From Marinilabiliales bacterium (lineage in GTDB: Bacteria; Bacteroidota; Bacteroidia; Bacteroidales; BM523): 10,181 nucleotides of DNA. A program made the position numbers and the translations under genes. Shown here piece by piece: positions 2,564-10,181 of the stretch (position 1 is its first letter; the number at the start of each line of letters is the position of its first letter). The stretch lies in contig PKSZ01000621.1 of the NCBI GenBank assembly GCA_002869425.1, positions 1-10,181 on the forward strand, written 5' to 3'. The notes under the pieces are model-generated. The model was not told where the DNA came from. It did not search any database and saw only the letters and a list, made by a program, of their open reading frames with translations.

Positions 2564-3784
2564 ATGGCAACCGTAAAAGTAGTATTAAGAAAGGATAAAG
2601 TAAATCAAAATACTGGACTGGCTCCTTTGTATCTTCGGATTATTAAGGACAGAAAAAGCAAGTTTATTTCATTAGGTGTAAAAGTTGAACCAAAATACTG
2701 GAATGAAGAGAAGTCAGTAATTAGAAAAGGAGCTGTTAACTATCAGGAATTGAATAACTTCATACTTCAGAAAAGAGCTGAAGCAGAAAGAACTGCCTTA
2801 GATATTGAAGGTACAACAAAGTCAGCTACAACGAAAAGAATCAAAGATGAAATAATTGGTAAAAAGCCAAGCAATTTCTTTGAGTATGCAGAAAGAAAAC
2901 TGAGCGAATTGAAACATACTATTGCTCCCAGCACTCATACAACTTATGGTTTTTATATCGGGAAAATAGAAAAGTTCCTGGGTCATAAAAACATTACTTT
3001 TCAGGAAATGGATATTGATTTTATAAAAAGGTATGAGAAGTATTTGTATGAAGAGGTTGGGAACAAGCCCTCAACTGTTGAGTACTCATTCAGGGTTATT
3101 AAAGTCATGTTTAATTATGCAATCAGCGAAGGTATTGTCGATTATAACACCTATGTATTCCGGCAATATAAATTCAAAAAGCCTAAAGCGGTTAAAAACT
3201 ATCTGAACGAGGAACAGTTCCAGGCACTATTGAAATACGAGCCTCCAAAGCAATTCCTTTATGATGTTTATTATGACATGTTTGTTTTCTCCTGCTATGC
3301 AGGGGGATTAAGACACTTTGATACTCTTGAATTGAAATGGAGCAATTATAATGAGCAGGAAGAACGAATAACCAAGGTGATCAGAAAAACAAAACGCAAA
3401 CATCAAATTAAGTTGCCTCAAAAAGCGGTTGAGATTATCAAAAAGTACAAAACCAAGAAATCAAAAAAATCAGATTTCATTTTTCCTGTATTAAGTAATG
3501 ACATTGATTACGATGTATCAAAAGAGCTTATTTACAATGTAAAGAATACAATAAATGGAAAAACAAACCATTTCTTGCGACAAATGGGAAGAGATCTGGA
3601 GTTGCCTTTTACCCTTTCCTTTCACACGTCTCGTCATACTTTTGCAACCAGGGCGTTAAATAAAGGAATGCGGATCGAACATGTGTCAAAGGTTTTAGAC
3701 CATACAGACATCAGTATCACGCAAGTATATGCAAAAATCGTAAACAAAGAACTTGACAAAGCAATGGAAATTATGGATGATTAG
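2564..3784 (+). CDS. Tyrosine recombinase/integrase
   Basis: This 406-residue site-specific recombinase cuts and rejoins DNA through a tyrosine nucleophile to integrate and excise the element. The N-terminal part (about 1-95, VKVVLRKDKVNQNTG... LGVKVEPKYWN) matches the Bacteroidetes arm-DNA-binding domain. Residues 105-205 form the SAM-like core-binding domain, and about 215-400 the catalytic domain. All catalytic residues are visible: R250 (GGLRHFD), K275 (RKTKRKH), H354 and R357 (HTSRHTF), H380 (LDHTD) and Y389 (VYAK). The length is normal for the family, so the enzyme looks intact. ATG 2564 is chosen because MATVKVVLRKD is a typical start for these proteins. It is the first gene of the element, next to the truncated attC site, which suggests its attachment site is nearby. 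Confidence 0.93.
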   Translation: MATVKVVLRKDKVNQNTGLAPLYLRIIKDRKSKFISLGVKVEPKYWNEEKSVIRKGAVNYQELNNFILQKRAEAERTALDIEGTTKSATTKRIKDEIIGKKPSNFFEYAERKLSELKHTIAPSTHTTYGFYIGKIEKFLGHKNITFQEMDIDFIKRYEKYLYEEVGNKPSTVEYSFRVIKVMFNYAISEGIVDYNTYVFRQYKFKKPKAVKNYLNEEQFQALLKYEPPKQFLYDVYYDMFVFSCYAGGLRHFDTLELKWSNYNEQEERITKVIRKTKRKHQIKLPQKAVEIIKKYKTKKSKKSDFIFPVLSNDIDYDVSKELIYNVKNTINGKTNHFLRQMGRDLELPFTLSFHTSRHTFATRALNKGMRIEHVSKVLDHTDISITQVYAKIVNKELDKAMEIMDD

Positions 3785-3814
3785 GGACGATTTGTGTAAT
3801 TTTTTCGTTTATCG

Positions 3815-3836
3815 GATTATTAATCAAAAAATAATC
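3815..3836 (+). terminator. Weak AT-rich hairpin after the integrase
   Basis: GATTATT (3815-3821) and AATAATC (3830-3836) form a 7-bp stem with an 8-base loop, 31 nt after the integrase stop and 4 nt before the next ATG. The stem is almost all A/T and there is no clear U-tract, so it is at best a weak terminator or a leader structure for the next gene. Confidence 0.2.
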
Positions 3837-3840
3837 TATT

Positions 3841-4522
3841 ATGAAAAATGCACTAATCAACGAATTGGGTAAATGCGATTTGATGTTTACCTGCATTATT
3901 AAAGAAAATGAGAGCCTGTTACAGAAGAAAGAAAAACTGAACAGGCTTTTTTATTTGTTTAAAAATGATGTCAAAGAAAAGCTGAAGGAGTTTACTTTGT
4001 ATGCTGATGCCTTGTTCTACATCAAAGAATTGAAGTATGATTTTTATGATTTGCTTAGAAACTCCATAAATGACAAGCTGCAGGGATTATTGTCGGGAGA
4101 AAAAGATGTTACTGACGATGAATCCCGAAAAAAAAATAAGGGCTGGACTTCTGCTGAACCGGCGTTATTGCCGAAAGATCATTGACTTTTTAGAATTGCA
4201 TGAATCATTACTAATCGAATTGAAAGAGGAATATCTTTCAGACAAGAAATATATGCACGAAAAGTTAAACTGGAACAGTACCCAGATTGATTTTCTTGAA
4301 CTGGTAGATTTTCTCGTAAGAACCAAAATTATAACAAAAAATGACGATTTTGTGAGTTTGAGCGAGGCCGTAAAAATCATTTCTGAACCCTTCAATTTGA
4401 AGATTAAAGATGTTCATTCTAAGCTATCCAAGGCTAGGCAAAGGAAAGAGGGATATGGTATTAAACTGTATCGAAAATGGACGACTTATCAACAATCCAA
4501 AAATTATCTTACTGACCAATAG
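3841..4522 (+). pseudogene. RteC-like regulator, split by a frameshift
   Basis: Two overlapping frames together make one RteC-like protein. The first part (ATG 3841) gives the N-terminal helical region, MKNALINELGKCDLMF to about SRKK, and then runs to a stop at 4185. The second frame continues with NRRYCRKIIDFLELHES and the recognisable C-terminal part LNWNSTQIDFLELVDFLV ... FNLKIKDVHSKLSKARQRK, ending at 4522. The switch falls at a run of nine A (4128-4136); eight A would join the frames into about 226 residues. RteC proteins regulate excision or transfer of Bacteroides conjugative elements, and this gene sits in the usual place between integrase and excisionase. It could be a true pseudogene, a sequencing or assembly error in the homopolymer, or a gene rescued by transcriptional slippage. 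Confidence 0.65.
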
Positions 4523-4549
4523 GGTTTTAAGTTTTCAACAATAAGAAAA

Positions 4550-4575
4550 ACGATACCACACGATACCATGTGGTA
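4550..4575. promoter_or_regulatory. Palindromic operator-like site before the HTH gene
   Basis: ACGATACCA occurs twice in tandem (4550-4558, 4560-4568). The second copy runs into TGTGGTA (4569-4575), giving TACCA-TG-TGGTA (4564-4575) and the wider pair TACCACA (4554-4560)/TGTGGTA. The cluster ends 66 nt upstream of the HTH gene start. It has the look of a regulator or excisionase binding site, but the partner is unknown. Confidence 0.45.
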
Positions 4576-4592
4576 AAATTATTTTTTGGAGT

Positions 4593-4609
4593 GGGGCTAA
4601 TATTGCCCC
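4593..4609 (+). promoter_or_regulatory. GC hairpin in the leader of the HTH gene
   Basis: GGGGC (4593-4597) and GCCCC (4605-4609) form a perfect 5-bp stem around TAATATT, 32 nt before ATG 4642. There is no U-tract after it, so it is not a standard terminator. It may act as a leader structure or protein-binding site. Confidence 0.35.
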
Positions 4610-4641
4610 GTATTTCATTTAATAACTTAAAATTTCTTGTT

Positions 4642-4908
4642 ATGGATTTAAAACTTGTAAAAACAAAAGACATTAATGAGCTAAAAAGGGAACTCAAAGA
4701 CATTAGGAAAGAGAACCTTGAATTACAGGATGAGTGGCTGAGTACTGCGGAAGCAGCAAAATTTCTGAAGGTCAGTAAGAAAACATTGCTTCGATACCGC
4801 AACATGGGCAAATTACCTTATTCAAAGGATGGCAGGAAAGTCCGGTACAAAAAATCCGACATTATCAAGTATCTGAAAAATCATTATTTTTCATTGGAAA
4901 ACCTGTAA
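4642..4908 (+). CDS. MerR/excisionase-type helix-turn-helix protein
   Basis: This small 88-residue DNA-binding protein has a short charged N-terminal coil (1-33) followed by a HTH_17/MerR-like domain. The domain reads WLSTAEAAKFLKVSKKTLLRYRNMGKLP, then a wing with GRKVRYKKSDIIKYL. Proteins like this in Bacteroidota elements act as excisionases or local repressors, bending DNA near the attachment site or controlling the replication genes. ATG 4642 is preferred to the in-frame GTG at 4570 because the extra residues are hydrophobic, do not belong to the fold, and would read through the operator palindrome and GC hairpin. The stop is separated by a single base from the primase-helicase start, so the two genes are probably co-transcribed and translationally coupled. 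Confidence 0.85.
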   Translation: MDLKLVKTKDINELKRELKDIRKENLELQDEWLSTAEAAKFLKVSKKTLLRYRNMGKLPYSKDGRKVRYKKSDIIKYLKNHYFSLENL

Positions 4909-4909
4909 A

Positions 4910-6880
4910 ATGGAAGATATGATTAAACTAAGTGTATTCAGGGGCTTTAACAATATTGTCGCTGAAAAAGATTTTACAGAGATAATTGATGCCGTCCGGA
5001 GCGATAAAATGAAAGATAAGATTGGAGAGCTTCGTGAAATAATGAAAGACGGTAATGAAAAGGAATATGCAAAAAAGAAAAAAGGGCTTATTGCGTTCAC
5101 CCCATCAGGAAGGTTTGAGGGTGGACGTAAGCCGGAATTTCTGAAAGAATACTCAAAGATCATTGTCCTAGATATTGACAAATCCAACAAAAGGACAAAA
5201 AAGCTAAAGGAATTGATCTGTACTTGTCCTTATACGTTAGGTTGTTTTGTCAGTCCCGGAGGAAACGGACTGAAAGTATTTGTGAAAACAGAAACCGATA
5301 TTGAACAGCACAAAGATACTTTCAACCGGATTAAAAAATACTACGAAGGATTGATTCAGTTCAAGGTGGATCCTTCAGGAAAAGATGTCACACGCTTGTG
5401 TTTTTTCTCTTATGACACAGAAGCATATTATAATGAAAACGCATGGCCATTTAAGGGAAATGAAGAAAAAAAAGAAAAGGAACCGGATTACAATCAAATA
5501 TTCCAAAAACAGGTTAAGTTTACCGACAAAATTATTCAATACCATTCGGGAAACCGGAACAATTATATTTACCAACTGGCTTGTAATTGCAATCGGATGG
5601 GAATACCAAAGCATATCACTGGTGATCTTGTACGGCAGAACTACGATCTTGAAAGCGAGGAAATTGAGAAATCTGTTTCCAGTGCGTATGAGAATCATCC
5701 TGCGGAGCACGGGGAAAAACAGGATGAAAATTCCAAAAAGCACACATCAAACAAGTTCACTATCACGGAAGAATACTTGAACGACAAGTATATTATCCGT
5801 TACAATGTGGTAAGCAATAAGTTTGAGTATAAAAAGAATGAAGATGAAAAATACCGGGAACTGAATGAAAACAATCTGTTTGTTCGGCTTCAGAAAGATA
5901 ATATCAATATTAGTCTGAATAATCTGGTAGCTTTATTGAAATCCGACTTTGTAAATGAATTCAATCCGTTCACTGCTTACTTTATGAGCTTGCCGGAATG
6001 GGATGGTCAGACAGATTATATCGGTGAGCTTATTTCTTATCTGAAATCACAGGATGAAAAACGGCTGGAAAGCCATTTCAGAAAGTGGATCGTCCGGGCG
6101 GTGCGGACTGCCATTGATGATAATTATTACAACAAACAGGCATTTGTTTTGGTAAGCAATAAGCAAAATTCAGGGAAGTCAACTTTCTGCCGGTTCCTCT
6201 GCCCTCCCATCCTCAAAGAATACATTATTGAAAACATTGGCACTGATAAAGACAGCTTGATTGCCATTACTGAAAATTTTCTTATAAACTTAGATGAACT
6301 TTCCACTGCAGAGAAAGCAGAAATCAATGCTTTCAAGTCCATGTTCTCAAAAGATAAGGTAAAAGCAAGGTTGACTTATGATAAAAGGGCTTCCGTGCAT
6401 GTTCGCCGTGCCAGTTTCATAGGCAGTACCGACCGATGGGAATTTCTCACAGATGAAAACGGTTCGGTTCGCTGGCTGTGTTTTGACATTAAGTACATTG
6501 ACTGGAATTACTCAAAAAGCATAAACATTGATTTAGTTTACTCACAAGCGTTTCATTTGCTGGTAAAAACAAAGTTCCAGTATGAGCTTACACCGGAAGA
6601 AATTGAGGAAAATGATCGGATAAATAAGCGGTACCAGGTAGGCAGCCCTGAGCGTGATTTAATTCAGAAGTACCTGAAACCATCAAAAAAGGAAAAAGGT
6701 GCATTTTTCACAGCAACTGATGTGCTGGAATACATTACCCAATTCACAACAATAAAGCTCTCCCCTGAGCGTATTGGGAAAGAATTAAAGTTTCTGGGTT
6801 TTGAACGATCGGTAATGTATCAGGATGGAAACAGTCGTTATGGTTATTTTGTTGAAGAAATTTCATACAATCAAGAATAA
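4910..6880 (+). CDS. VirE/BT4734-type primase-helicase
   Basis: This 656-residue replication protein has several parts in order. The BT4734/VirE-N primase-like domain (about 1-175) shows LDID (D88, D90), SPGGNGLK (115-122) and KDVTR (158-162), the acidic, glycine-rich and basic motifs of archaeo-eukaryotic-type primases. A PriCT-like helical segment follows at about 188-275. The VirE ATPase/helicase domain (about 290-600) has Walker A QNSGKST (419-425), Walker B INLDE (D462, E463) and a sensor-like FIGSTDRWEFL. A C-terminal DUF3874-like winged region ends the protein. Its P-loop lacks the first glycine of the textbook motif, which is normal for this family as I know it. Such proteins are thought to start replication of integrative or satellite elements. 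It is probably co-expressed with the HTH gene and is followed directly by an iteron cluster, its likely origin. ATG 4919 is an alternative start. Confidence 0.88.
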   Translation: MEDMIKLSVFRGFNNIVAEKDFTEIIDAVRSDKMKDKIGELREIMKDGNEKEYAKKKKGLIAFTPSGRFEGGRKPEFLKEYSKIIVLDIDKSNKRTKKLKELICTCPYTLGCFVSPGGNGLKVFVKTETDIEQHKDTFNRIKKYYEGLIQFKVDPSGKDVTRLCFFSYDTEAYYNENAWPFKGNEEKKEKEPDYNQIFQKQVKFTDKIIQYHSGNRNNYIYQLACNCNRMGIPKHITGDLVRQNYDLESEEIEKSVSSAYENHPAEHGEKQDENSKKHTSNKFTITEEYLNDKYIIRYNVVSNKFEYKKNEDEKYRELNENNLFVRLQKDNINISLNNLVALLKSDFVNEFNPFTAYFMSLPEWDGQTDYIGELISYLKSQDEKRLESHFRKWIVRAVRTAIDDNYYNKQAFVLVSNKQNSGKSTFCRFLCPPILKEYIIENIGTDKDSLIAITENFLINLDELSTAEKAEINAFKSMFSKDKVKARLTYDKRASVHVRRASFIGSTDRWEFLTDENGSVRWLCFDIKYIDWNYSKSINIDLVYSQAFHLLVKTKFQYELTPEEIEENDRINKRYQVGSPERDLIQKYLKPSKKEKGAFFTATDVLEYITQFTTIKLSPERIGKELKFLGFERSVMYQDGNSRYGYFVEEISYNQE

Positions 6881-7079: not shown

Positions 7080-7220
7080 AAAGTAAGTAAAAAATGGGAA
7101 AAAGAAAAAAAGTTAATTATTATCAATAGATGTTGTTATTTTTGTTAATTCTGCAATAATTATAGTAAATTTATCAGTCATGAGTTTTTTGCAAAGTTTA
7201 TTGCATAATTGAAGGTTAAT
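7080..7220 (+). promoter_or_regulatory. AT-rich leader of the cargo operon
   Basis: No gene is seen here. TATTTTTG at 7137-7144 fits the Bacteroidota -7 consensus TAnnTTTG and is identical to the box proposed for the integrase gene. A -33 box is not clear. AAGG (7213-7216) lies just before ATG 7221 and could be a weak ribosome binding site. Confidence 0.3.
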
Positions 7221-8726
7221 ATGGCTAAGAAAAATATTAATATCGATCCGAGAAAATACATGAAAATGGCTGTTGAAGTGATGATAAGTTCAATTCAAGA
7301 ACCAAGAACGGATAAGTCTAGCCCTAAAGTTGGTGCTGTTTTAATCAAATCTGACGGGAGTTTTGACACCGCTTTTCGTGGAGAATTAAGACACGGAGAT
7401 CATGCAGAATTTACTGTTATTGAAAGAAAAAATAGAGATACTGATCTATCAGGAGCATTATTATTTGCAACATTAGAGCCTTGTGCTCCTGGTGCAAGAA
7501 ATGCTCCAAAGTTAAGTTGTTCAGAGCGAATTGTTAATGCACGAATTTCGGAAGTTTGGATTGGTATTGAAGACCATGATCCTACTGTTAACCATGCTGG
7601 GATTAATTATCTTTTAAAGCACGGAGTTAAAGTTCATCAATTTGACAGGGATTTGCAAAAAATCATTGAGAAAGAAAATGAGCAATTTTTGACTGAAGCT
7701 AAAAAAAGAGCAGTTGATGCAAAAGACAAAAAAGTTGAGATTAAAAGTATTCTTAATAAATATGCAGAGCATACAGATTTAAGTAGCCTTTCGCAAGAAG
7801 CATTGGAGTCCTTTTTGAAAAAATCAGGTAGCAATCTAAAATGGAATTCTGATGAATTTTACAATGAGCTGAGTCAGATGGCATTACTGGATAAGGATAA
7901 AAATGGTAATTACCTGCCAACTGGTAATGCAATATTATTGTTTGGGAAAAAGCCAAGATTAAAATTTCAACAATCTTCTGTAAAGGCTAAAGTTGATTAT
8001 GGAAATGGAGATATTGATGTTCAAAGTTTTGATGATGCAATAATTCTTATTCCTGATCAGATTGAAAACTGGATAAGAAAAGTATTGCCTGAAAGTTTTG
8101 ATCGTTCAACTTTTACTCGTGAAAAAACACCTGCATATCCTATTCCGGTTATTAGAGAGGCGATAATAAATGCTTTGGTACACAGAGATTATAATATTGA
8201 TACTGCAAAAATTCAATTAGAAATAACACCGGATAGAATAGTAATAAAAAGTCCAGGAAGTCCTGTTTCTCCATTAAAAATAAATGATTTGAAGAATTTT
8301 AGTGCTTCATCATTTACACGAAACAAAAAAATTGCTCTTGTTTTTAATGAGATGAAACTTATTGAGGAAACAGGTGTTGGAATGGATACCTTTAAGTCTT
8401 TACCAGAAAAATACTCTTTGCCATTACCTATTATTCAATATCTGCAATCTAATATTTTTGTAATATTTCCAAGAACCACAGAAGCTATTCGTAAGATAAT
8501 CGGAAGTGAAGATATTGAACAATTAAATGATGAAGAACTTACAGGATTAGATTTTGTTAAACTTAAAGGAGAAGTTAGTAGAAAGGAGTATGCTGCTCAT
8601 TTTGGTTTTAATGATAGGAAAGCAAGTAGGCATCTTTCAAAGATGAGAAATATAGGTCTTATTGGAGATAATGGTAAAGATGTTCGTTCAAAGAATTATA
8701 AATATGTTTTTCTTAAAGATGGATAA
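7221..8726 (+). CDS. RibD-like deaminase - GHKL ATPase - winged-helix fusion
   Basis: This 501-residue multi-domain protein begins with a zinc deaminase fold (about 12-140). It has HAE (H61, E63) and PC-x11-C (C88, C100), the zinc ligands and catalytic glutamate, and DHDPTVNHAGINYLLKHGVKV resembles the end of RibD deaminases. A linker leads to GNAILLFGKKP and a GHKL ATPase domain of the RecG-C-like/HATPase_c_4 type (about 230-420), with E313, N317 and HRD (321-323), PG (345-346) and ETGVGMD (G385, G387). A winged helix (about 440-495) ends it. In relatives the ATPase usually follows an AlbA/Schlafen-like domain; here a deaminase takes that place. The substrate is unknown (a nucleotide or nucleic-acid base). 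ATG 7221 is preferred over TTG 7209. It lies upstream of sufE-dndC in the same direction, so it may regulate or assist phosphorothioation, or act as a defence effector. Confidence 0.82.
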   Translation: MAKKNINIDPRKYMKMAVEVMISSIQEPRTDKSSPKVGAVLIKSDGSFDTAFRGELRHGDHAEFTVIERKNRDTDLSGALLFATLEPCAPGARNAPKLSCSERIVNARISEVWIGIEDHDPTVNHAGINYLLKHGVKVHQFDRDLQKIIEKENEQFLTEAKKRAVDAKDKKVEIKSILNKYAEHTDLSSLSQEALESFLKKSGSNLKWNSDEFYNELSQMALLDKDKNGNYLPTGNAILLFGKKPRLKFQQSSVKAKVDYGNGDIDVQSFDDAIILIPDQIENWIRKVLPESFDRSTFTREKTPAYPIPVIREAIINALVHRDYNIDTAKIQLEITPDRIVIKSPGSPVSPLKINDLKNFSASSFTRNKKIALVFNEMKLIEETGVGMDTFKSLPEKYSLPLPIIQYLQSNIFVIFPRTTEAIRKIIGSEDIEQLNDEELTGLDFVKLKGEVSRKEYAAHFGFNDRKASRHLSKMRNIGLIGDNGKDVRSKNYKYVFLKDG

Positions 8727-8731
8727 CGTCT

Positions 8732-8825
8732 TCGACATATTCATAGACAAGATGTCGATGATAGTGATAACGGTTCTGATCTTGGATCTGGTCATCGACA
8801 TAATCATCGACATAGTGTCGATGAT
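8732..8825. repeat. ATCGACAT-type repeat cluster before sufE-dndC
   Basis: Five copies of one motif occur in 94 bases. They are TCGACAT (8732-8738), its reversed form in ATGTCGATGAT (8752-8762), TCATCGACATA twice at a 12-bp step (8792-8802, 8804-8814), and TGTCGATGAT (8816-8825). ATCATCGACA (8803-8812) and TGTCGATGAT (8816-8825) form a perfect 10-bp inverted repeat with a 3-base centre. The first pair forms a 7-bp inverted repeat with a 13-base centre. The cluster lies between the winged-helix gene and sufE, where an operator for the phosphorothioation genes would be expected. The binding protein is unknown. It could instead be part of an old coding tail, because one frame is open throughout. 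Confidence 0.55.
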
Positions 8826-8906
8826 GAAAGTAATGATGGAACTAAGGACGATAGTAATGATAAATACAAGAGCATATTATATGACCTCATAGAAATTAGT
8901 AATGAA

Positions 8907-9332
8907 ATGGAGAAACCCAGTATAGAAGTTAGGCAGAAAGAAATTATATCAGATTTGAATGAATTTGAAGATTGGAACTCGAAGTATGAATATATAATTG
9001 AGTTTTCCGATAGGTTGAAACTGATTGAGAAAAAGGATTTAGTGGTTGAAAATTTAATTGAAGGGTGTCAGTCAAATGTTTGGATAAAGTCTAATTTTGT
9101 AAATGGTTTTGTATTTTATGTTGGCGATAGTGATGCAGATATTCCTAAAGGAATTTTATCAATGATTACTTATGTTGTAAATGGCTGTTCTCCTGATGAG
9201 ATAATAAATGCAGAATTGTTTTTTTTGCATGAATCTAAATTATTATATCATTTAACACCAACAAGGGTTAATGGATTGAATTCAATGATTGAAAGGATAA
9301 AAAAGATAGCTTTTGACTGTAAGATTAAGTAA
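8907..9332 (+). CDS. sufE: SufE-like sulfur acceptor/transfer protein
   Basis: This 141-residue protein has the length and motifs of SufE/CsdE. DWNSKYEYIIEFSDRL matches the N-terminal helices, GCQSNVW carries the persulfide cysteine (C54), GDSDADIPKG (73-82) is the conserved loop, and HLTPTRVNGL (115-124) holds the conserved arginine R120. SufE accepts sulfane sulfur from a cysteine desulfurase such as SufS and passes it on. Here it ends one base before dndC, so the likely recipient is the DNA phosphorothioation machinery rather than iron-sulfur assembly. No DndA/IscS desulfurase is visible, so a host enzyme would supply the sulfur. ATG 8907 fits the family's start and has no strong ribosome binding site, common in Bacteroidota. 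The frame is open upstream to 8727 without ATG, GTG or TTG. Confidence 0.88.
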   Translation: MEKPSIEVRQKEIISDLNEFEDWNSKYEYIIEFSDRLKLIEKKDLVVENLIEGCQSNVWIKSNFVNGFVFYVGDSDADIPKGILSMITYVVNGCSPDEIINAELFFLHESKLLYHLTPTRVNGLNSMIERIKKIAFDCKIK

Positions 9333-9333
9333 A

Positions 9334-10181
9334 ATGGAGAAAAAATTTCAAGATATAATTGATGAATTAGTAGATCAATATACTTACGCCGACAAAACTG
9401 AAAGGCCTTGGATTATAGGTTTTAGTGGCGGTAAGGATTCAACAGTATTATTGACTTTGGTTTGGCGAGCATTGGAAAAAGTGCGTAAAGAGATGCCGTT
9501 TCCATATCAGTTACGACGACCTGTTTATGTTGTTTGTGTAGATACAATGGTTGAGAACCCAATAATAGAGGAGTATATTGATGATGTTTTAAGTAAAATT
9601 GAACAAGCAGCGAGGGATAATCAGTTGCCAATATTTGTTAAGAAGACAATCCCTAAAATTGAGGCAACGTATTGGGTTAATGTACTTGGCAAAGGTTATC
9701 CTGTTCCGAATACAGTGTTTAGATGGTGTACAGATAAATTAAAAATAAGACCTACTTTATCATTTATTACAGAACAAGTTGATGAAAAAGGGGAAGCAAT
9801 AGTATTAATTGGAACAAGAATTTCTGAAAGCTCAAATAGAGCGAAAACGGTAAAAAGGCATGAAATAAAAGGGAAAAGATTAACAAAACATACTAATCAT
9901 CAAAATACATATGTGTATTCTCCAATAAAGAATTTGCATTTAGAGGAAGTCTGGTATTTAATCAATGCATTCCCATCACCTTGGGGATATGATAATTCAA
10001 AATTATTTAAGATTTATGCTGATGCGAGTGCAGATGATTATGAATGTCCTTCTGTTGTGACTGATAAAAGTCATTCTTCATGTGGTCAAAGTCGATTTGG
10101 TTGTTGGACTTGTACGGTTGTAAAAGAAGACAAATCGATGTCTGCATTAATTGATAACGGAGAAGATTGGATGAGACCACT
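9334..10181 (+). CDS. dndC: DndC, DNA phosphorothioation sulfurtransferase (partial)
   Basis: The first 282 codons are present and the gene runs off the right edge. It belongs to the PAPS-reductase/ATP-pyrophosphatase family. The PP-loop GFSGGKDST (SGGKDS, 31-36) binds ATP, and ETxW-like EATYWVNVLGKGYP with RWCTDKLKIRP (C132) is typical of DndC. C238, C250, C257 and C260 (the last two in GCWTC) are the likely ligands of the 4Fe-4S cluster. DndC works with DndD and DndE to replace a non-bridging phosphate oxygen in DNA with sulfur, which marks self DNA for restriction or gives other protection. ATG 9334 is one base after the sufE stop, so the genes are coupled. dndD and dndE should follow to the right. 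Relatives usually run past 450 residues, so roughly half is seen. Confidence 0.93.
   Translation, partial: MEKKFQDIIDELVDQYTYADKTERPWIIGFSGGKDSTVLLTLVWRALEKVRKEMPFPYQLRRPVYVVCVDTMVENPIIEEYIDDVLSKIEQAARDNQLPIFVKKTIPKIEATYWVNVLGKGYPVPNTVFRWCTDKLKIRPTLSFITEQVDEKGEAIVLIGTRISESSNRAKTVKRHEIKGKRLTKHTNHQNTYVYSPIKNLHLEEVWYLINAFPSPWGYDNSKLFKIYADASADDYECPSVVTDKSHSSCGQSRFGCWTCTVVKEDKSMSALIDNGEDWMRP

Follow-up and report, generated by a model that had tools for sequence, protein, structure and literature searches.

The 10,181-nucleotide window analysed here, from a Marinilabiliales bacterium, carries on its forward strand an intact gene (7221..8726) for a 501-residue protein that joins a RibD-like zinc deaminase, a GHKL ATPase and a C-terminal winged helix; a TTG at 7209 is a possible alternative in-frame start. 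Inspection of the DNA after each stop codon in the family revealed, directly 3' of the gene and outside the coordinates under which it was first annotated, 33-bp elements whose sequence is specific to each locus and changes together with the winged helix. This co-evolving, self-addressed array was missed by the first-pass annotation, which had linked the gene to DNA phosphorothioation (dnd), and it makes the family more interesting than that claim did. Our analysis points to a widespread, uncharacterised protein family that may act as a swappable, self-contained switch rather than as part of a DNA-sulfur system.

A three-box array behind the gene

Each element consists of a 9-bp box, 3 bp, a repeat of the box, 3 bp and the box in reverse complement, giving a 12-bp register of forward, forward and reverse copies. 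The window holds two on the forward strand: the first at 8729..8761, TCTTCGACA - TCATAGACA - (reverse) TCATCGACA, and the second 63 bp on at 8792..8824, TCATCGACA - TCATCGACA - (reverse) TCATCGACA. When registers of 10 to 14 were scanned, 12 was the best in all 39 hits; 130 elements have register 12, 13 have register 11, to which the TCGCCA class belongs, and one has register 13. Of 66 distances between successive elements, 47 measure 60-64 bp and 45 measure 61-63 bp, which is about six turns of the helix. In 37 of 75 cases no more than 10 bp separate the stop codon from the start of the first element.

Across the 88 loci used for array counts, the array was detected in 69, compared with 20 of 2,380 control windows and with 2 of 88 on the upstream side; a looser detector found it in 77 loci against a background of 32 in 746 windows. 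ATPase relatives that lack the deaminase had no array in any of 41 bacterial and 28 viral cases, five further relatives having been dropped for short flanks. The palindrome formed by boxes 2 and 3 (up to two mismatches) occurs nowhere in the bacterium's own assembly, which is 83% complete, outside the two window elements, and the 5' side of the gene shows no surplus of boxes. For these two reasons we read the array as a private address and not as a regulon, no trace of which was seen in that assembly.

The array does not appear to be a general element of Bacteroidota chromosomes either: a GGACA-core pattern was found at six places in 4 of 296 genomes, compared with five for the backward control. 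Four of the six places form two pairs 63 bp apart, one of them behind a gene of the deaminase-ATPase family (genome G137) and the other in genome G046. The latter pair (locus L444, around 1500) lies behind open reading frames (ORFs) that by eye resemble type II restriction-modification genes, and no deaminase gene is present within the 3 kb examined there.

The winged helix and the boxes change together

The winged helix is encoded at 8514..8714 on the forward strand (about residues 432-498), with the recognition helix at about 465-477 and the wing at about 481-497. Covariation was measured on 66 of the 88 loci; excluded were those without a protein longer than 440 aa and those in which no forward element begins within 80 bp. 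Box sequence follows the winged helix closely (Spearman 0.64, partial 0.57); it is weakly related to the adjoining GHKL domain (0.15) and unrelated to the deaminase and middle region. Pairs of loci whose cores are less than 50% identical and whose winged helices are more than 70% identical differ on average at 0.43 of the nine box positions, and pairs with winged helices less than 30% identical differ at 4.8. Natural swaps are also found, in which the cores are 95% identical, the winged helix has been exchanged and the boxes differ. Co-inheritance by physical linkage alone is disfavoured because spacers and flanks would then travel along, yet in the 58 of these loci used for this control they track the winged helix far less and decay far faster than the boxes.

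The residues most informative about the boxes lie at the start of the helix-turn-helix (HTH; 453 and 454), in the recognition helix (466-470) and in the wing (483-493), the three places at which such folds usually contact DNA. From this covariation we strongly infer physical binding of the boxes by the winged helix, and the exchanges point to winged helix and array together being an exchangeable specificity module. That the boxes are read as double-stranded DNA rather than as RNA is very probable, since the three boxes tend to change together and their mismatches show no G-U bias. The competing possibility is a role at the RNA level, in which an antitoxin-like 3' transcript of the array would inhibit the deaminase as AvcI inhibits AvcD. 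The array is nearly always in sense orientation to the gene and is able to form hairpins, and AvcID is described in an excerpt of PMC10511110 as a deaminase restrained by RNA. Against this, comparison of the two elements of an array in 47 pairs gave 19 positions that change in all three boxes and three that change in boxes 1 and 3 alone, G-U accounts for an unbiased 31 of 156 mismatches between boxes 2 and 3, in 102 of 185 cases it is box 2 that deviates from the other two, and the window has no Rfam match. An RNA hairpin is disfavoured by these box changes, mismatch statistics and the Rfam result, and we regard an RNA role as very unlikely.

In seven loci (L005, L016, L054, L058, L063, L065 and L073) the locus's own element is followed, further out, by elements of another class, which look like remnants of earlier occupants or swaps.

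The deaminase and the ATPase

The deaminase domain (7251..7700, forward strand; about residues 11-160) has an HAE motif and a PC...C zinc site within a cytidine deaminase (CDA) fold, fold comparison being based on Foldseek's own top matches only. Its zinc ligands H61, C88 and C100 and its catalytic residue E63 are kept in 89 of 89 aligned sequences. The domain order and the position beside sufE-dndC noted at first pass were borne out. RibD itself was rejected as an identity: the match to TIGR00326 reaches 50 bits against a cut-off of 156 and is limited to residues 30-162, and profile searches found no reductase domain in the window protein. In RibG, D101 and N103 hold the ribose, according to an excerpt of PMC8256712. 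By alignment and conservation the deaminase largely keeps the ribose-holding positions of RibG, and a free nucleotide is therefore the likelier substrate than DNA. The GHKL (HATPase_c_4) ATPase domain (8121..8495, forward strand; about residues 301-425) matches PF13749 with 56.6 bits against a cut-off of 26, and its N-box residues E313 and N317 are present in all 89 aligned sequences.

Distribution and genomic company

Of 7,997 candidates scored in a first protein search, 2,691 match at 1e-5, and both Pfam domains are present in all 120 matches listed. The deaminase part alone gave 2,186 matches at 1e-10, with the ATPase domain also present in 117 of the 120 listed. Named database relatives carry labels such as 'ATP-dependent DNA helicase RecG', and P0002, among the closest relatives, is 72% identical to the window protein. 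In a sample of the bacterium's own phylum a match at 1e-60 was found in 8 of 395 genomes, its own included. The best 80 of 193 loci in named genomes, which were used for the neighbour counts, come mostly from Bacteroidota but also from Planctomycetes, Kiritimatiellia, Desulfobacterales, other groups and two Methanolobus archaea; this patchy distribution points to horizontal movement of the gene family. Plasmids yielded no protein match at 1e-30, and phage records yielded 15 at 1e-10, at most 31% identical and none with 80% coverage.

Flanks of up to 10 kb, many of them shorter, were compared around these loci, each cluster of neighbours being typed through one representative. In the window the gene is followed by a sufE-like gene (8907..9332, forward strand) and by dndC (9334..10181, forward strand), which is truncated by the contig end. 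Neither is a conserved partner: in 0 of 80 loci does a neighbouring ORF of at least 70 aa match the window's SufE or its partial DndC at E 1e-3, and dndC (TIGR03183) is present in 2 of the 48 carrier genomes searched, a set that leaves aside the genomes of L033, L044 and L053-L082. The co-occurrence with dndC on which a general linkage to DNA phosphorothioation would depend is thus missing, and the dnd reading is not supported beyond the window locus. That the protein is a dedicated component of a dnd system, as its co-directional position next to sufE-dndC had suggested, is largely refuted by these counts and appears extremely unlikely.

The broader suspicion of a link with defence fared better. 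Recurrent neighbours include type I restriction-modification genes, Piwi/Argonaute, HerA with SIR2, a ResIII helicase with a methylase, and Eco57I-type enzymes; at least one member of a recurrent defence-type cluster is present in 22 of the 80 loci, with type I systems in 11 of these. The 1.06 Mb of flank contain 9 HsdM-type genes where about 1 would be expected, given that 78 carrier genomes, together about 302 Mb, contain 273 N6_Mtase (PF02384) matches. The comparison mixes methods, the 9 coming from BLAST clustering and the 273 from a hidden Markov model. In L067 and L049 the longest ORF of the deaminase-ATPase gene overlaps hsdS by 4 and 11 bp, respectively, and hsdR comes directly next in the former and two ORFs later in the latter. 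A cluster whose one typed member is Piwi lies near 6 of the 80 genes. A PADLOC match to an Argonaute-associated (Aga) profile was dropped as proof of an Argonaute partner because it lies on the ATPase side of the protein and the profile also matches many AlbA- or SIR2-type proteins. In six loci (L012, L031, L041, L052, L056 and L059) the gene is followed by a small protein of a single cluster whose typed member is DprA-like.

A possible self-contained switch, or a controller of downstream genes

The explanation that we favour, and consider about as likely to be right as wrong, is a self-contained, horizontally moving switch of defence type, in which a deaminase effector would be controlled by ATP and by binding of its own array. 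The RibD-like domain would be the effector, probably deaminating a free (ribo)nucleotide, and the GHKL ATPase would couple ATP binding and dimerisation to its activity. The winged helix would bind the box array directly downstream, and this contact may keep or set a resting state, either by tethering or by autoregulation; when binding is lost, for example to competitor DNA or through damage to the locus, the deaminase would be released. Of these steps, we infer nucleotide deamination, a toxic or defensive outcome and the trigger. Among the three ideas raised at first pass (a dnd regulator, a base editor and a nucleotide-depleting switch), a switch acting on nucleotides is the likeliest.

Several observations weigh against the switch as formulated. 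A pair of elements 60-65 bp apart is present in only 43 of the 88 loci, and 11 loci lack an element even by the loose detector. The repeats of L044, L045 and L048 appear by eye to be arranged differently, the element pair of L080 lies in front of the gene, and some arrays contain distal elements of another box class. The search for further copies covered an incomplete assembly, as stated above. Moreover, 58 of 80 loci have no recurrent defence-type cluster, a figure affected by many short contigs and by rarer defence genes being left untyped, and an association with defence genes does not show a defence function.

A rather unlikely alternative is that the protein acts like a C protein as a transcription controller of whatever lies downstream, with the array serving as an operator or roadblock for hsdR, hsdM, sufE-dndC or Argonaute genes and the deaminase and ATPase sensing nucleotides. 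Regulation of the dnd operon as such is unsupported, and it is in this general form that the idea is kept. The array does lie between the gene and hsdR or hsdM in L067, L064, L026, L036 and L038, and L049 and L062 show the same order with one or two further ORFs interposed. In the window, 82 bp separate the end of the array from sufE. Of 71 loci with a next ORF of at least 140 aa inside 1.5 kb, 50 have it in the same direction as the gene. In the other 21 it is convergent, however, and the downstream genes vary between loci. The predominance of loci without recurrent defence clusters and the lack of a box excess at the gene's 5' side also speak against a controller.

The same element in phages

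Three-box elements with the 12-bp register are also present on virus contigs: the TTGGACA and CGCGACA classes account for 44 and 14 contigs, ATRGACA for at least 120. In controls for TTGGACA, register 11 gave 1 contig, and neither register 13 nor the reversed box gave any. In 64 of 137 virus loci the element lies within 30 bp behind an ORF of 270-310 aa; in the single example typed, this ORF is a single-strand binding protein (ssb) and its neighbour a UvsX-like recombinase. From such proteins we take the contigs to be T4-like phages of Bacteroidota. Of 50 chosen records, a number of which are fragments, 45 contain exactly one copy of a GACA-core pattern. A winged-helix profile that recovers 20 of 20 held-out family members had no match in the 42 of these records that were searched, and a phage-encoded winged helix was rejected accordingly.

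The presence of the element without a winged helix is not explained by tethering alone, and it adds to the points against the switch. One might suppose that the winged helix reads phage DNA by recognising the three-box element that phages carry, for instance between ssb and uvsX, and that the array is a self copy or storage site. The register-specific element, its frequent position behind such an ORF, its mostly single occurrence in a record and the lack of a phage winged helix in the records searched are all consistent with such a reader. Arguing in the other direction, the phage element may be a terminator, since its boxes 1 and 3 are often complementary, its box 2 has frequently degenerated and a T-rich stretch comes after it. 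In addition, 80 ssb loci chosen by protein similarity mostly hold other sequences at that place (26 of 80 pass a loose threshold, T-rich chance matches included), 27 of 137 virus elements fall inside a predicted ORF, and phages attacked through the element would be expected to lose it. We find a phage-DNA reader highly doubtful. A further reading, which we hold to be distinctly unlikely, is a deaminase immune sensor with an exchangeable address: the winged helix would read a three-box site common to its own array and to phage genomes (between ssb and uvsX), bacteria would swap the cassette of winged helix and array to follow phage site classes, and copies of the site in phage DNA would draw the protein away from its array by titration, setting off nucleotide deamination.

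Among the virus loci L187-L321 (L307 and L275, for example), elements of the same classes lie between ssb- and uvsX-like genes, and in related phages the place is taken by boxes of other classes or by unrelated hairpins.

Relation to known systems

AvcD, like the window protein, also has a nucleotide-binding domain, and avcI adjoins avcD; the domain in AvcD is kinase-like, in contrast to the GHKL domain here. The window family further differs in its RibD-type C-x11-C deaminase, in having the winged helix in the same chain, and in an accompanying array that is apparently DNA and not RNA. What the two share is a deaminase with a private accompanying nucleic-acid element, linked for AvcID to phage defence (in an excerpt of PMC10511110). 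Proteins of the order AlbA_2/Schlafen - HATPase_c_4 - HTH (3lmm), presumably those known as COG2865-like, have the same ATPase domain, part of the preceding region and a C-terminal HTH, but another domain in place of the deaminase; the deaminase-less ATPase relatives without an array, 41 of 41 bacterial and 28 of 28 viral, are not all AlbA_2 proteins. RibD/RibG enzymes differ from the window protein, which has no reductase match and a loop longer than C-x8-C. Private DNA sites fitting an HTH protein are familiar from C-protein-controlled restriction-modification, and modular exchange of specificity from the swapping of HsdS target-recognition domains; the sites of the window family, by contrast, lie behind the gene as forward-forward-reverse triplets, and their reader is fused to an enzyme. 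In searches limited to open-licence full texts, we found no title or beginning of an abstract that describes the deaminase-ATPase protein or its array. We would place the family among deaminase-type switches as a variant, and those searches gave no counterpart to its array.

About two thousand database proteins share the deaminase, and the array offers a direct and cheap handle on them: it predicts the DNA that each protein should bind, and the natural swaps are ready-made tests of specificity. If a self-address does control a nucleotide deaminase, this would be a new way of restraining an immune or toxic effector, and the shared phage element would tie the family to phage recognition or to phage counter-measures.

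Other features of the window

Beyond the stop codon at 8724-8726 the reading frame remains open from 8727 to 8906, into the start of sufE, and is rich in His and Asp. An integrative element adjoins the deaminase-ATPase gene upstream: positions 2564-6880 encode a tyrosine integrase, an RteC-like fragment, an HTH_17 protein and a BT4734/VapE primase-like protein. Within it, two overlapping ORFs at 3841-4522, the second partly RteC-like, are possibly a frameshifted gene. An ORF at 42-986 with DUF6998 and a weak PvuII-endonuclease match is possibly a restriction enzyme, and one at 1092-2342, with weak matches to coiled-coil families and SLATT_1, is possibly a membrane protein.
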